From Methanolinea sp. (GTDB lineage: Archaea > Halobacteriota > Methanomicrobia > Methanomicrobiales > Methanospirillaceae), in the NCBI GenBank assembly GCA_029907345.1, contig JARYMB010000001.1, forward strand, positions 1 through 64,000: 64,000 nt of DNA, written 5' to 3'. The notes beneath the pieces are model-generated. The model saw nothing but the letters and a program-made list of their open reading frames with translations, made no database searches and was not told the origin of the DNA. The first letter of the stretch is position 1, and each line of letters begins with the position of its first letter. The translations under genes were made by a program, and so were the position numbers. Of this stretch, positions 45,193 through 51,539 are shown piece by piece.

Positions 45193-45840
45193 ATGGAGAA
45201 CAGCAGTGAGGACAGAGGTCCCGGTCAGCCGGATCCGCAGGCACCTGAGGGCGAGGTGATCATCCTCGTCCCCGGTGACGAGCGTTCCCAGAAGATTGCA
45301 AAGGCCATCTCGAGCCAGGCAGCAGGAGATGTTCTCCATGCCCTCGAGAGGGGACCCCAAACGGCAGGGGCGCTTGCCTCGGCCCTGGCCATGCCGATGG
45401 GAACCGTCAAGTATCACATCGAAAACCTCCTCGAGGCAGGGCTGATCGAGGTCAGGGATACGAAATACAGCGTGAAAGGCAGGCAGGTCAAGGTGTACGG
45501 GCTGCGCAACCAGCTCCTGATCATGGCCCCGAAGGTCCAGAACATACGCTCCATCCTCCTCAAATATGCAGCCCTTTTCGGTGTCGTTGTCCTCTCCTCG
45601 CTTGCAGCGTATGCGTTTCTCGCCGCATCGCGCTTGACGACAACGGGCTATGGTGGAGGGGACAGGGCAGCCTTCCAGGCGGAAAAGACAGTCAACATCC
45701 TTGCAGCCCCGACACCTGCACCCTCTCCGTTCCCCCAGACACTCCCTGCCGATATTGCACTCGCCTTCTTTTTCGGGGGTGTCCTGGTCCTCATCATCCT
45801 CCTGCTCTACGAGGTCTCCGTCTGGCGCAGGATGAAGTGA
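45193..45840 (+). CDS. Membrane-anchored winged-helix transcription regulator
   Basis: 215 aa. The N-terminal region has an ArsR-like winged helix (about residues 35-110): ISSQAAGDVLHALERGPQTAGALASAL, then MPMGTVKYHIENLLEAGLIEV and a wing TKYSVKGRQVKVYGL. Two membrane helices follow (about 118-142 and 188-208), separated by a Pro/Ala-rich loop likely outside the cell. Such one-component membrane regulators could sense an external signal. The gene starts 11 bp after alaS and is convergent with the surface protein gene. Confidence 0.78.
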   Translation: MENSSEDRGPGQPDPQAPEGEVIILVPGDERSQKIAKAISSQAAGDVLHALERGPQTAGALASALAMPMGTVKYHIENLLEAGLIEVRDTKYSVKGRQVKVYGLRNQLLIMAPKVQNIRSILLKYAALFGVVVLSSLAAYAFLAASRLTTTGYGGGDRAAFQAEKTVNILAAPTPAPSPFPQTLPADIALAFFFGGVLVLIILLLYEVSVWRRMK

Positions 45841-46788: not shown

Positions 46789-46800
46789 ACTATATAATAT
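46789..46800 (+). promoter_or_regulatory. TATA box of the coiled-coil operon
   Basis: ACTATATAATAT lies 22-33 bp before the ATG at 46822, predicting a leaderless message for the six-gene operon that follows. Confidence 0.7.
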
Positions 46801-46821: not shown

Positions 46822-47250
46822 ATGGAATCCATCACTCTGAAAGTCCAGGAAAGGGCCTTTCCAAGCAGGGGGAGGGCCAGGATCAACGAGGTGCATTTAA
46901 AGACCCTCGGGATCAGCGAAGGCGACAGTGTCGAGATCTCGGCAGGACCGGATAAGAAACCCGTTGTCGTCACTGTCTTTGCAGACAAACTGGTCGAAGA
47001 GGGGACCATCAGGTTGAGCCCGGAAGATATCGCAAAGGCAGGGGCAATGGCAGGCGCTCACGTGACAGTGACACGGGTTCCCCCTGTTTCTGAACGTGTC
47101 AAGAAGACAGCGGGCCAGGCAAAAGAGAGCGTAGCCAGGGATGTGAAGAAGGCAAAGGAAGTCATCTCGAAAAAATCGTCGGACGCGAAGGAATCGATGG
47201 AAAAAGGGGTTGAATCTGCGAAAAAGAGCCTCCAGAAAAAAGACCTGTAA
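46822..47250 (+). CDS. Cdc48-N/AbrB-like barrel protein with charged helical tail
   Basis: 142 aa. Residues about 1-88 have the double-psi-barrel pattern of the Cdc48/VAT N-domain: ITLKVQERAFPSRGRARINE, HLKTLGISEGDSVEISAGP, then GTIRLSPEDIAKAGAMAGAHVTV. The rest is a Lys/Glu/Ser-rich amphipathic helix (ERVKKTAGQAKESVARDVKK and onward) of the kind found in LEA and apolipoprotein-like proteins. There is no ATPase domain. It heads the coiled-coil operon, 18 bp before the next gene. A scaffolding or substrate-recognition role is inferred. Confidence 0.72.
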   Translation: MESITLKVQERAFPSRGRARINEVHLKTLGISEGDSVEISAGPDKKPVVVTVFADKLVEEGTIRLSPEDIAKAGAMAGAHVTVTRVPPVSERVKKTAGQAKESVARDVKKAKEVISKKSSDAKESMEKGVESAKKSLQKKDL

Positions 47251-47268
47251 CCCCGGGAGACCAGATCA

Positions 47269-47652
47269 ATGACAGACATGTGGGTGGTTTTTGAAGGGTT
47301 TCTCCCCTATCTCCTCGTTCTCATCGGCCTGATCATCCTGTTTTTCATCATCAGGGAGTTCCGCCTGATGTATTCGGGGACCAGGCTCGCGCAGCTCGAG
47401 CTCGAACGGGAGAAGATCAACCTCCTCAAGGCAGACATGGAACAGCGGGGCCGGCCGTTCTATCGGATATCGCCCCAGGATCTCGAAGAGTTAAAAAAAC
47501 TCGACGAGGAGAACGTAGAACTGGAGACCGATATTTTCGCGCGGCACACCGCCGTTGAAAAACGGTTGAAGCGCCTCGAGAGCAGGGTCGCCCTCACGAA
47601 GCTCGACCGGATGATAGAGAAGATAAAACGCGAAGAAGAGAGGCTGGGGTGA
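47269..47652 (+). CDS. Small membrane-anchored coiled-coil protein
   Basis: 127 aa. One N-terminal membrane helix (FLPYLLVLIGLIILFFII) is followed by a cytoplasmic coiled coil rich in E, K and L (QLELEREKINLLKADMEQ; LEELKKLDEENVELETDI; EKRLKRLESRVALTKLD). No enzyme motif is seen and I recognise no family. The stop overlaps the next gene's GTG start by 4 bp, so the pair is translationally coupled. Confidence 0.7.
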   Translation: MTDMWVVFEGFLPYLLVLIGLIILFFIIREFRLMYSGTRLAQLELEREKINLLKADMEQRGRPFYRISPQDLEELKKLDEENVELETDIFARHTAVEKRLKRLESRVALTKLDRMIEKIKREEERLG

Positions 47653-47966
47653 GACAGTTGACCATATACGGGACACCCGGCAGAACGACAGAGAAGTATC
47701 CCCTGCTGGAATCGATGAAGGAAATACCGGCGGTCATCGATGAGCACCTCCCGACGATGGACAAGGGGCTCGACGAGTATTTCGACCGTAATTTTCCGGC
47801 TATCATTAGCGAATGGGGGCTCGTGACCTCCATCCACCTGAAAAACCTCGAACGGAGGCTCGATCGCGTTCACAGGCAGATCGATGTCCTCGAGAAGAAC
47901 AAAAATGAACTCGAGAAGAGAGCTTTTGCCCTCGATAAAGAGTTGAGGAGGCTTGAGGGGCAATGA
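47649..47966 (+). CDS. Coiled-coil protein with DR-EW motif, copy 1
   Basis: 105 aa, soluble. The start is GTG, overlapping the previous stop (GTGA). The centre reads LDEYFDRNFPAIISEWGLVT (about residues 42-61), and a coiled coil follows to the end (LERRLDRVHRQIDVLEKNKN and onward). The same D-R-x5-I-x-E-W-x-L element occurs in the next two genes, so the three proteins are paralogous. Function unknown. The stop overlaps the next ATG by 4 bp. Confidence 0.7.
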   Translation: MRQLTIYGTPGRTTEKYPLLESMKEIPAVIDEHLPTMDKGLDEYFDRNFPAIISEWGLVTSIHLKNLERRLDRVHRQIDVLEKNKNELEKRAFALDKELRRLEGQ

Positions 47967-48184
47967 GGAGCCCGGATTACCTTGGTTCCTACGTGGACCG
48001 GCGCATGAAGTACCTCATCGAGGAATGGGATCTCGCAACCCGGCGTGATCTCGGGGACCTCGTGTCCCGTCTCTCCGTTCTCGAGGAAGAGGCGCGGATG
48101 TGTGCAGGGTTCGAGGCGACTGCCTCGGCAAAGCTTACCGAACTCGAAAAGAGACTCGAATATATCAGGGGGAGACGGAAATGA
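47963..48184 (+). CDS. Coiled-coil protein with DR-EW motif, copy 2
   Basis: 73 aa, the shortest of the three related proteins. GSYVDRRMKYLIEEWDLATR (about residues 8-27) is the shared element, and the rest is coiled coil (DLGDLVSRLSVLEEEARM and ASAKLTELEKRLEYI). Start and stop both overlap neighbours by 4 bp (ATGA), a strong sign that it is a real, co-translated gene despite its size. Confidence 0.68.
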   Translation: MRSPDYLGSYVDRRMKYLIEEWDLATRRDLGDLVSRLSVLEEEARMCAGFEATASAKLTELEKRLEYIRGRRK

Positions 48185-48519
48185 CAATCATCGAAGGGCT
48201 CCTCGTCCTCATTCTCATCATCGTCATTGCCTTTACCCTCTACTATTACTTCAGGGGATCCACCGGCAGGCTGGATATCACCCGCCCGCTGGAGAGCAGG
48301 ATCGACGAGTACCTCGACCGGAAATTCGACATGCTCATCGAAGAATGGTCGCTTGTCCGGCGTTCACAGGCCGAGCAGTTCAGGGATGAAAAGGTGCCCC
48401 TCCTCGCAAAGGACGAGGAGAGGATGGCAGCGCTCAAGGCTTTTGAAAAGGATTTCGGCGAAGAATTAAACAGGCTGGAGGAGAGGATTGAGGCTCTGGA
48501 AAAGCAGGTCCCAAGGTAG
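48181..48519 (+). CDS. Membrane-anchored coiled-coil protein with DR-EW motif, copy 3
   Basis: 112 aa. An N-terminal membrane helix (IIEGLLVLILIIVIAFTLYYYF) is followed by the shared element IDEYLDRKFDMLIEEWSLVR (about residues 40-59) and a coiled coil (LKAFEKDFGEELNRLEERIE). The element sits right after the membrane helix, so it is probably close to the inner membrane face. I use the ATG at 48181 because it overlaps the previous stop; a longer frame opens at 48100 inside the previous gene. Confidence 0.7.
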   Translation: MTIIEGLLVLILIIVIAFTLYYYFRGSTGRLDITRPLESRIDEYLDRKFDMLIEEWSLVRRSQAEQFRDEKVPLLAKDEERMAALKAFEKDFGEELNRLEERIEALEKQVPR

Positions 48520-48799
48520 CCGCCAGGAAAAAAAGAAGGGGGAAGACATCCTTTCCCGCATCAGGAAGGATATCCGGAGAGTGAGGAGGCAGGGGGATCC
48601 CCCGGAGCGGGATCCCGCCAGTTTCTCCCGCTATTCGTGCGACCTCTGCAACAATACGTACCCGAAGAAAGACTTAAGGCAATGTGCCCTCTGCGGGAGG
48701 TGGGCCTGTGCCTCCTGCTGGACGGAAAAGTTCTACGCATGCAAGGCATGCAACGGGATCATCACTCTCCACCTCGCAACGGAAAAACCAGGGGAGTGA
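48488..48799 (+). CDS. Eight-cysteine zinc protein ending the coiled-coil operon
   Basis: 103 aa from a TTG start preceded by GGAGGAG (48477-48483); no ATG is available in frame. A basic N-terminal arm (RIRKDIRRVRR) leads to four CxxC pairs: C51/C54, C66/C69, C74/C77 and C85/C88, enough for two zinc sites in a FYVE/treble-clef-like or rubredoxin-like arrangement. It overlaps the previous gene by 32 bp. Nucleic-acid or protein binding is inferred. Confidence 0.66.
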   Translation: MRLWKSRSQGSRQEKKKGEDILSRIRKDIRRVRRQGDPPERDPASFSRYSCDLCNNTYPKKDLRQCALCGRWACASCWTEKFYACKACNGIITLHLATEKPGE

Positions 48800-48815: not shown

Positions 48816-49370
48816 TTAGAAGAGAACGTGGTGGATATTCTCTGCAAAAAGTGTCACCGCGAGGACGAGCCCGGACGCGATCACGAAACCAGCCGTCGTG
48901 AAGATGATAGTGGGAATTTTTTGCCATCCCAGGATCCAGGCGATCACGGGAGTGCCGTAGAGCCCGATCCCGGGTATCCACGCGATGAAAATGCAGGAGA
49001 TGGCCCCGTACGAGCGAATCGACGGGTGTTTCTCCATGCTCTTCCCGACTTTTGTGATCCATCGTGCAACCCGCTCCGATGTCAGGGAGAGTGCATCGCA
49101 GACCTCGAGGATGCAGGTCACCACACCGACTGCGAATGATGCCATCAGGACGATGATGACAGGGTCAGCCAGGCCCAGGGGATGCCCAAGGGGTGGGGCT
49201 GCACCCTGCAGGACGAATGCGGATGCGATGAGGGGAAGGATCCTGCCCTCCGGTATTCCGAGGATGGCACCGATGAGGAGGGGGACTGCCAGTACGAAGG
49301 TGAAAAGGACCAGAATCGCACGCGAGAGCTCCGCCAGCACACGCACATGGGAACGGAGCCAGGGAAACAT
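48816..49370 (-). CDS. Small multidrug-export-type membrane protein (COG2426)
   Basis: 184 aa with about five membrane helices. The family pattern is visible in HPSIRSYGAISCIFIAWIPG and LYGTPVIAWILGWQKIPTIIF. COG2426/PF06695 is named for putative small-molecule export, but this has little experimental support. It is convergent with the zinc-protein gene (16-bp gap). A more distant relative of the same family lies at 62.8 kb. Confidence 0.7.
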   Translation of the reverse strand: MFPWLRSHVRVLAELSRAILVLFTFVLAVPLLIGAILGIPEGRILPLIASAFVLQGAAPPLGHPLGLADPVIIVLMASFAVGVVTCILEVCDALSLTSERVARWITKVGKSMEKHPSIRSYGAISCIFIAWIPGIGLYGTPVIAWILGWQKIPTIIFTTAGFVIASGLVLAVTLFAENIHHVLF

Positions 49371-49540: not shown

Positions 49541-50158
49541 TCACACGAGCCCGAGGAAATTTTTCAGGAGGGCAAGACCACGTGCACCACTCTTCTCGGG
49601 GTGGAACTGGACTCCATAGACATTCCTTTCGTCCCATATCGAAGACGCAAACGGGAGGATGTATTCCGTTTTGGCAAGCGTATACCGGTCTTCAGTATCG
49701 GCATAGTAGGAATGGACAAAATACATGTAATCGCCGGCCCGTATCCCCTCGAAAAGAGGATTGTCCTGCCGGACAGGGGAGAGAGAGTTCCACCCCATGT
49801 GGGGCACCTTGCAGCCGCTGACCCGTGGGAACCGGCGCACGGTCCCCGGGACGAGCGAGAGTCCCCTGTGCAGCCCCTGCTCCTCGCTCCATTCGAGCAT
49901 CATCTGCATCCCCAGGCATATCCCGAGCAGCGGGACCGACCGTGAAGCCTCGAGGATAATGGCCCGGAGGTCCCCGAGCTGCTCCATGCCGTCGCGGAAC
50001 GCCCCGACACCAGGCAGGACTATCCCGTCGGCAGAGGCCACGTCTAAGGAGTCCGTCGTGATGACCGGCCTTCCGCCTGCCTTTTCGAGGCCCCGGAAGA
50101 CCGACCTCAGGTTTCCAAGGCCGTAATCAACAATTGTAATCTTCTTCACCGGCAACAC
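49541..50158 (-). CDS. hisH: Imidazole glycerol phosphate synthase glutaminase subunit
   Basis: 205 aa class I glutamine amidotransferase that supplies ammonia to HisF in histidine biosynthesis. The catalytic Cys is in LLGICLGMQMML, and His and Glu lie in VQFHPEKSGARG. The N-terminus ITIVDYGLGNLRSVFRGLEKAG is diagnostic. The start at 50158 lies 32 bp inside the upstream PAPS-reductase-like gene; a GTG at 50149 is an alternative. hisF is not adjacent. Confidence 0.94.
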   Translation of the reverse strand: MLPVKKITIVDYGLGNLRSVFRGLEKAGGRPVITTDSLDVASADGIVLPGVGAFRDGMEQLGDLRAIILEASRSVPLLGICLGMQMMLEWSEEQGLHRGLSLVPGTVRRFPRVSGCKVPHMGWNSLSPVRQDNPLFEGIRAGDYMYFVHSYYADTEDRYTLAKTEYILPFASSIWDERNVYGVQFHPEKSGARGLALLKNFLGLV

Positions 50159-51539
50159 CCCTGATCCGCCACCCGGCGTCTTCCACCCAGGAATCGGGGA
50201 GGCCGCGGGCTTTCTGCCATTCCTTCAGCCTGGCATCCCATTTCTCCCAGAGGGACGGGTAGCGGGACATGACATGGCGGATGACGGCAAGGTCGCTCGA
50301 AGGACACATGAAACACCCAATCCTGTCGACTCCCTGCTCGTAGAGACGGTTATACGGCGCTTTCTCCCGGAAAAGGTACAGCCAGACGTGCAGGGCCGTC
50401 CAGTGGTGGATGGGCGCCGCGGAGACCTGGGCCGGGATGTGCGGGTTCCTCCACACGCGGTGGCTAGCCATCCTCCGGGACGATTCGAACTGCCGCTGGC
50501 CGATGAAGGAGAGGCACTCGCCCCATGTCTGCCTGATGACCCTGTCGACAGGCGCAAGTTTTGCTGCCCGGCAACACCACCGGAAGTCACGTGCAGGCGG
50601 CCCCCTGGTCGAAAAAGCATCCCAGAACGCCTCGCTGCCCCGGGCCATAATAACGGGAAGGCCATAGTGATCTGCCACCTCCCGGACGTTGTCGTATGTC
50701 TCGGGGAACTCAAGACCCGTGTCTGCAAAGAGGAGAGGTACCCTGCCAAGAGCTTTCGTAACGAGGACCAGTGTCACGAGGCTGTCCTTTCCACCCGAAT
50801 AGGAGACGTTTGGGGAGAAATCCTCATGACCCTGCCTGACATTTCGTATGAAACTGATTGCCTCTTCCTCGCGTTCATCAAGGGGCCCCGCATTTGCAGC
50901 CACGGCATCCTCCCAGGTTGCCTTCCCCGGAACGCAGACGGATGCAAATGTCCGCCGGGTCCTCACGACGAGTCCCCGTTCCATCGATTCTGCAACGCAT
51001 GCGTCCACACGTGCCCGCCCGACGGCAATGCACTCTCTTTTTTCATCGAGGACAAAGACCTCGTCGCCCTTCCTGACCGAGGGCTCGATCGCAACGAGGC
51101 CCGGGGCAAGCAGGCTCGCCGACCGGTCCCTGATCGCCGCTGCTGCCCCGTCGTCAGCGACCACCCACTTTTTGGCCGGGGCGGAAAGCCCGAAAGATTC
51201 CTTCCGCGGGATCGCCTCCCATCGCCCTTCCTCCGGGATGTAGCGAATCGCCCCGGCCACCCCGCCTCCCACGATCACCTCTTCCATGCGGTCTTTGTCC
51301 GGGACCTTGTTGAGGAGGGCAAGGTGCCCGTCCGGGACGAGGGGAGACCCGAAATGGTCGGAGTAGACCCTGTTCACGAGCTCCACGTCAGCAGGGAATG
51401 CCGGTCGCGGATCCCCGGGTGGCGTGAGCATGACCTTCCGTGTCACTCCTCCGCACCGCGAGCACACGCGGGAGAGCACGGGCGTGTGGCACGTGTCGCA
51501 CCACCAGAGCATTCCCCGGAACGAGAGAGGCGACGGCAT
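50127..51539 (-). CDS. PAPS-reductase-like protein with zinc ribbon and PUA-like domain
   Basis: 470 aa. Order: N-terminal zinc ribbon (C-x2-C-H-T and C-S-R-C-G-G, about 14-32), a PUA-like segment (about 130-210, SLLAPGLVAIEPSVRKGDEV), then a PP-loop ATPase core with SGGKDS and a C-terminal cysteine-rich part (DRIGCFMCPSS). Such proteins are common in methanogens, where annotation as sulfate reduction enzyme is doubtful. The PUA and ribbon suggest RNA, such as tRNA thiolation. Substrate is unknown. A TATA-like box lies at 51570-51577. Confidence 0.78.
   Translation of the reverse strand: MPSPLSFRGMLWWCDTCHTPVLSRVCSRCGGVTRKVMLTPPGDPRPAFPADVELVNRVYSDHFGSPLVPDGHLALLNKVPDKDRMEEVIVGGGVAGAIRYIPEEGRWEAIPRKESFGLSAPAKKWVVADDGAAAAIRDRSASLLAPGLVAIEPSVRKGDEVFVLDEKRECIAVGRARVDACVAESMERGLVVRTRRTFASVCVPGKATWEDAVAANAGPLDEREEEAISFIRNVRQGHEDFSPNVSYSGGKDSLVTLVLVTKALGRVPLLFADTGLEFPETYDNVREVADHYGLPVIMARGSEAFWDAFSTRGPPARDFRWCCRAAKLAPVDRVIRQTWGECLSFIGQRQFESSRRMASHRVWRNPHIPAQVSAAPIHHWTALHVWLYLFREKAPYNRLYEQGVDRIGCFMCPSSDLAVIRHVMSRYPSLWEKWDARLKEWQKARGLPDSWVEDAGWRIRGVAGEEDYNC

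Follow-up and report, generated by a model that had tools for sequence, protein, structure and literature searches.

The window, a stretch of 64,000 nucleotides from the genome of Methanolinea sp., contains at positions 46822–48799 six co-directional ORFs on the plus strand, designated genes A–F (Table 1). As in the original prediction, all six lie downstream of a single TATA box. The location of this box approximately 30 nt upstream of the start codon of A and the presence of an AT-rich TATA-like sequence at about −30 from A in most relatives suggest a near-leaderless transcript beginning at A. The junctions between the genes had been described as overlapping; this is correct for B/C (GTGA), C/D and D/E (ATGA in both cases), and E/F (a 32-nt overlap), whereas A and B are separated by an 18-nt gap. 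The TTG start codon assigned to F is supported by an ATG found in the F genes of relatives at the position matching 48488.

Table 1. Genes and sequence features of the six-gene operon (positions in the window).
Feature	Position	Strand	Length (aa)	Description
TATA box	46791–46798	+		TATATAAT; assigned from sequence
Gene A	46822–47250	+	142	
Tail of A	47086–47247	+		K/A/G/E-rich amphipathic helix, 11-residue periodicity (98–99 degrees)
Gene B	47269–47652	+	127	
Gene C	47649–47966	+	105	GTG start
DR-EW element of C	47769–47825	+		LDEYFDRNFPAIISEWGLV
Gene D	47963–48184	+	73	
DR-EW element of D	47987–48037	+		SYVDRRMKYLIEEWDLA
Gene E	48181–48519	+	112	
DR-EW element of E	48301–48357	+		IDEYLDRKFDMLIEEWSLV
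Gene F	48488–48799	+	103	TTG start, overlapping the end of E
Treble-clef of F	48638–48751	+		Eight cysteines, CxxC-x11-CxxCGRWAC-x2-C-x6-CxxC

The product of gene A was predicted to be a Cdc48-N/AbrB-like barrel with a charged tail, and both sequence and model comparisons support the barrel. Residues 1–86 represent a double-psi beta-barrel of the Cdc48 Nn type, accompanied by the charged tail. The CDC48_N profile (PF02359) matches the protein of the window with an E-value of 4.3e-8 and a score of 33.7 bits, slightly under the gathering cut-off of 35.1 bits, and 23 of 24 A relatives match this profile at E-values up to 0.01. According to the analysis in Foldseek, the AlphaFold model of A is similar to the DPBB domains of VCP-like ATPases (E-value 3.4e-8, rmsd 1.6 Å), and the E-values obtained with VCP/p97/Cdc48 barrels range from 3e-8 to 6e-7 at an rmsd of about 1.6 Å. 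In the Cdc48/VAT proteins, the N-terminal domain of which is alike in fold and sequence, the barrel is accompanied by a second lobe and an AAA ATPase; A instead has an amphipathic tail and, sometimes, a TrkA_C domain. Neither a second lobe nor an AAA domain was found in A, where only the Nn lobe is present, and its identification as a Cdc48/VAT AAA ATPase was rejected given its length of 142 aa and the absence of AAA modules.

The 11/3 amphipathic nature of the tail and the fusions of A with TrkA_C had been overlooked. For the tail, the hydrophobic moment is greatest at 99 degrees per residue (z of approximately 46 against composition-preserving shuffles), which corresponds to the 11/3 periodicity of synuclein and apolipoprotein helices. 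A profile search with the tail found ApoA-IV (3e-6) and, weakly, alpha-synuclein; Senescence-domain and apolipoprotein matches were also obtained for A. The tail shares the 11/3 periodicity and a K/A/G/E/V/T composition with the 11-mer helices of alpha-synuclein and the apolipoproteins, which does not imply common descent, and the matches with ApoA-IV and alpha-synuclein reflect these two properties. Alternatively, an 11/3 tail of this kind can be an LEA-like helix. The tail has low pLDDT in the AlphaFold model, and the model would be compatible with lipid binding as well as with its absence. In other genera, the tail is longer and in some of them it is followed by a TrkA_C domain. Of 24 relatives, 7 carry this domain on A (best E-value 2.6e-9); it is missing from A in the genus of the window and most others. 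The loci with TrkA_C at the C-terminus of A are L041, L043, L046, L056, L059, L063, and L066, belonging to Methanospirillum and some other genera.

Hydrophobic helices were found in the products of B and E only, those of A, C, D, and F being without one. According to hydropathy analysis, B, for which no informative Pfam match was obtained, has an N-terminal membrane helix at approximately residues 13–31 and a coiled coil. The helix is predicted in 93% of 40 relatives, and in the remainder the start was called too late. The N-terminal hydrophobic helix of E spans approximately residues 3–22. The positively charged residues that follow the membrane helices in the sequence suggest that the coiled coils of B and E face the cytosol.

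The products of C, D, and E are coiled coils that follow a shared DR-EW element; C and D are soluble and E is membrane-anchored. This element of about 20 residues had been proposed to go beyond coiled-coil similarity and to lack a named family. It is indeed shared beyond chance, the pairwise E-values of profile–profile comparisons being 1e-12 for C/E, 3e-14 for D/E, and 3e-16 for C/D. C–E match no family in Pfam or NCBIfam, and no family in either database names the element. Among 85 distinct sequences of each of the three genes, the D...EW-x-L block has a single fixed length in nearly all, and no row contains an internal deletion relative to the profile. A coiled-coil bundle of fixed register would require such constancy, yet this is no proof of one. 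In the phylogenetic tree, C, D, and E formed three clades, each lying to one side of a branch with 96–99% support and each containing all genera tested; this indicates that the family radiated after the triplication and that each copy has been retained for itself.

When C was compared with solved structures, the matches were limited to coiled coils of a generic, viral, or designed kind. In addition, positions 82–125 of the Phasin profile (PF05597) can be aligned in a single register with the DR-EW element of C and the beginning of its coil, which was observed for 7 of 7 C elements tested. The best segment scored 19.1 bits, short of the curated gathering score of 28.8 bits, and C was not accepted as a member of this family. 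Phasin matches were found for 16 of 25 C proteins at E-values up to 0.05, for 5 of 25 D proteins, and for none of the E proteins.

As for gene F, its product was described as an eight-cysteine zinc protein of an operon that looked undescribed. The eight cysteines are indeed present and nearly invariant in 24 relatives, but the protein is a full member of the Pfam family PF14445, Prok-RING_2 (E-value 3.4e-25; score 88.4 bits, cut-off 22.4), the definition of which covers the zinc domain alone. In the F sequence of one locus (L059:4383–4676), the fifth zinc-ligand cysteine is missing, with WADDNC instead of WACxxC. The zinc domain of the AlphaFold model has pLDDT above 90, and its last helix is located at and after the final CxxC. 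The structural neighbours listed first are FYVE, Slp/melanophilin, and PHD domains, all at non-significant E-values, and comparison with solved structures yielded nothing beyond weak zinc matches of the treble-clef and TFIIE types. A RING fold was rejected on the basis of the predicted model, in which ligands 6 and 7 stand only a few residues apart without a long helix; the fold appears to be FYVE/PHD-like and not RING-like. The R(R/K)HHCR phosphoinositide motif of FYVE domains is absent, with LRQC occupying the equivalent place. Thus, although the family name implies a RING, an E3 ubiquitin-ligase role of F is possible but not supported.

The closest named genome belongs to Methanolinea sp. 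(96% identity over E), and other named relatives were found in Methanolinea, Methanoregula, Methanospirillum, and unclassified Methanomicrobiales in a scan that used a single seed peptide and cannot exclude very divergent relatives elsewhere. Among 232 genomes of the order, F (PF14445) was detected over the cut-off in 90 and E in 89, both being present in 88 genomes (Fisher p 9e-61, uncorrected for kinship). The three discordant genomes are G009, in which F lies near a contig start, and G008, in which the match is partial and located where a contig ends, both with F only, and G096 with E only. No convincing match was found in three other families of the order, nor outside Methanomicrobiales in a sample of 393 genomes of the phylum, where borderline matches (E-values 0.003–0.008) were dismissed as coiled-coil noise. 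Viral contigs scanned with the E profile yielded no relative, leaving a viral origin unsupported; among known anti-phage defence proteins, PADLOC gave no match for A–F at E-values up to 0.1.

The complete order A-B-C-D-E-F was found in 40 loci of the same family in addition to the window, with one further locus ending at a contig edge, and in 67 of 84 further loci, a set that partly overlaps the former. The incomplete loci among the 84 are mostly contig ends, split frames, or extra copies without F. The latter are L108, L110, L116, and L121/L153, and probably also L096 and L100, which are cut off. In L116 and L108, F is missing, since the next gene is located on the other strand. A calcineurin-like phosphoesterase follows three of the F-less copies L108, L110, L116, and L121; the fourth is followed by a multi-pass membrane protein. 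The operon is conserved, recurring in many genera of Methanomicrobiales; homologues are not scattered without their partners, the genes travel as a block, and extra copies without F are the only recurrent exceptions.

The flanking genes vary between genera and none is constant across them, so the block looks self-contained. Genes of the DUF308/HdeD-like type occur within approximately 2 kb of the operon, on either side, in 6 of 17 genera; the crude binomial p of 8e-8 for this adjacency is post hoc, as it was noticed after the flank scan, and the genera are not independent. The adjacency is absent in the window and in the sampled Methanospirillum, Methanoregula boonei-type (G033), and f6 genomes. 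In E. coli, HdeD is a membrane protein involved in acid stress, and the HdeD-like neighbours make membrane stress the preferred setting of the system. Calcineurin-like phosphoesterases, found near several operon copies, are a weaker lead than these genes. In the window itself, the region 5′ of the operon (45193–45840, plus strand) encodes a winged-helix regulator (HTH_20) that has hydrophobic segments at its C-terminus and is retained in several Methanolinea loci. A small multidrug-export-like membrane protein (PF06695, below the cut-off) is encoded convergently with the operon (48816–49370, minus strand), and its homologue is located, perhaps by chance, near the F-less copy L121 of another genus. 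Further downstream (50127–51539, minus strand), PUA and PAPS-reductase domains are fused in a protein that may be an enzyme of RNA modification or thiolation.

Since the six-gene unit is intact through much of the methanogen order and is lost or kept whole, it is very likely one working system. Psp systems, which consist of small membrane coiled-coil proteins and a peripheral membrane partner, would be alike in their way of working without being homologous to A–F. Matches with PspB and PspAA were isolated and weak, and no PspA-like member is present. No description of the operon was found in the literature searched. Nor were the genes mentioned, as far as could be seen without locus tags, in a paper on the Methanospirillum envelope, one on a co-culture, and one on archaeal dark-matter islands, which makes this a weak negative. 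Burroughs, Iyer and Aravind reportedly defined the prokaryotic RING families in 2011, and the neighbourhood was possibly noted there. Barring such a prior note by the authors of PF14445, A–F would be a system unlike any known kind that could be tested here.

The anatomy and conservation of A–F are well supported and far more certain than their function. The analysis shows which genes belong to the set, their order and co-inheritance, the paralogy and fixed register of C–E, the predicted folds of A and F, the hydrophobic helices, and the periodicity of the tail, whereas hetero-oligomerisation, topology, lipid binding, and a role in stress or quality control are what we infer from them. A membrane-associated assembly is likely and may form a scaffold, although a shared operon need not by itself imply a shared complex. 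The reading that we prefer, with a probability of about 0.4, is a membrane-anchored platform facing the cytosol, with a lipid-contacting A and a zinc adaptor F, that would act in membrane homeostasis or the quality control of membrane proteins. The six genes would encode a single hetero-oligomeric assembly attached to the cytosolic face of the membrane, where B and E would be single-pass anchors with their coiled coils pointing inwards. C, D, and E would be held together by the DR-EW helix and the coiled coil after it, in a constant register, forming a defined bundle of which E is bound to the membrane and C and D are soluble. A would lie on the same membrane surface with its 11/3 tail on the lipid, its Cdc48 Nn-like barrel would bind a client or partner, and in some genera TrkA_C would add ligand or ion sensing. 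F, the gene of which overlaps E, would be a zinc treble-clef adaptor dispensable in duplicate copies. Such an assembly would most likely serve to sense or stabilise a membrane that is under stress, or to hold on to membrane clients in the course of quality control. More tentatively, it may be a hitherto undescribed archaeal membrane machine in which the fixed three-paralogue bundle recruits a synuclein-like Cdc48-barrel protein to the cytosolic surface of the membrane, with an optional ligand sensor and a zinc adaptor, for homeostasis of the membrane or quality control of its proteins.

The name Prok-RING_2 of F and the Cdc48 N-terminal barrel of A could also point to ubiquitin-like or Cdc48-linked tagging, in which F would be a RING E3, and A, a substrate receptor of the Cdc48-N type, would feed the Cdc48/VAT unfoldase and the proteasome. 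We consider this unlikely: the FYVE/PHD-like model of F has its helix at the last CxxC, A is an Nn lobe without an AAA module, and extra operon copies lack F. In addition, E2 (PF00179) was found in 0 of 15 operon genomes, although the control genomes contain none either. A membrane complex regulated by an ion or a second messenger is a rather improbable explanation. Here, TrkA_C of A would be the reader of K+ or c-di-AMP, with a transporter gated or clustered by the coiled-coil array; the TrkA_C fusions agree with this, and ORF reading placed a ClC-like channel near two F-less copies, but the domain is absent from A in the genus of the window and most others, and no transporter is constant among the neighbours.

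Even more doubtful is a coat of granules or lipid bodies, in which a perilipin/synuclein-like A and a phasin-like C would cover an intracellular inclusion. The 11/3 tail with its apolipoprotein and Senescence-domain matches, the single register of the Phasin matches in C elements, and their frequency in C proteins are consistent with it. However, the segment matches of C are well under the gathering score, Phasin matches are few in D and absent in E, and the membrane helices of B and E make a bilayer the more likely target. Equally doubtful is a cell-envelope or cell-shape scaffold peculiar to these methanogens: its limited distribution in part of one order, coiled coils of near-constant length, and membrane anchors would fit, but the operon occurs alike in Methanospirillum, which is sheathed, and in unsheathed genera, and no envelope gene is constantly linked to it across genera.

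None of A–F is a protein of demonstrated function, and four of them (B–E) are without a named family. The presence of relatives in the cultured genera Methanospirillum and Methanoregula makes the membrane-anchored platform proposed here directly testable, and the pairing of a Cdc48-type barrel with a helix of the lipid-surface type would bear on the handling of membranes or membrane proteins in archaea.
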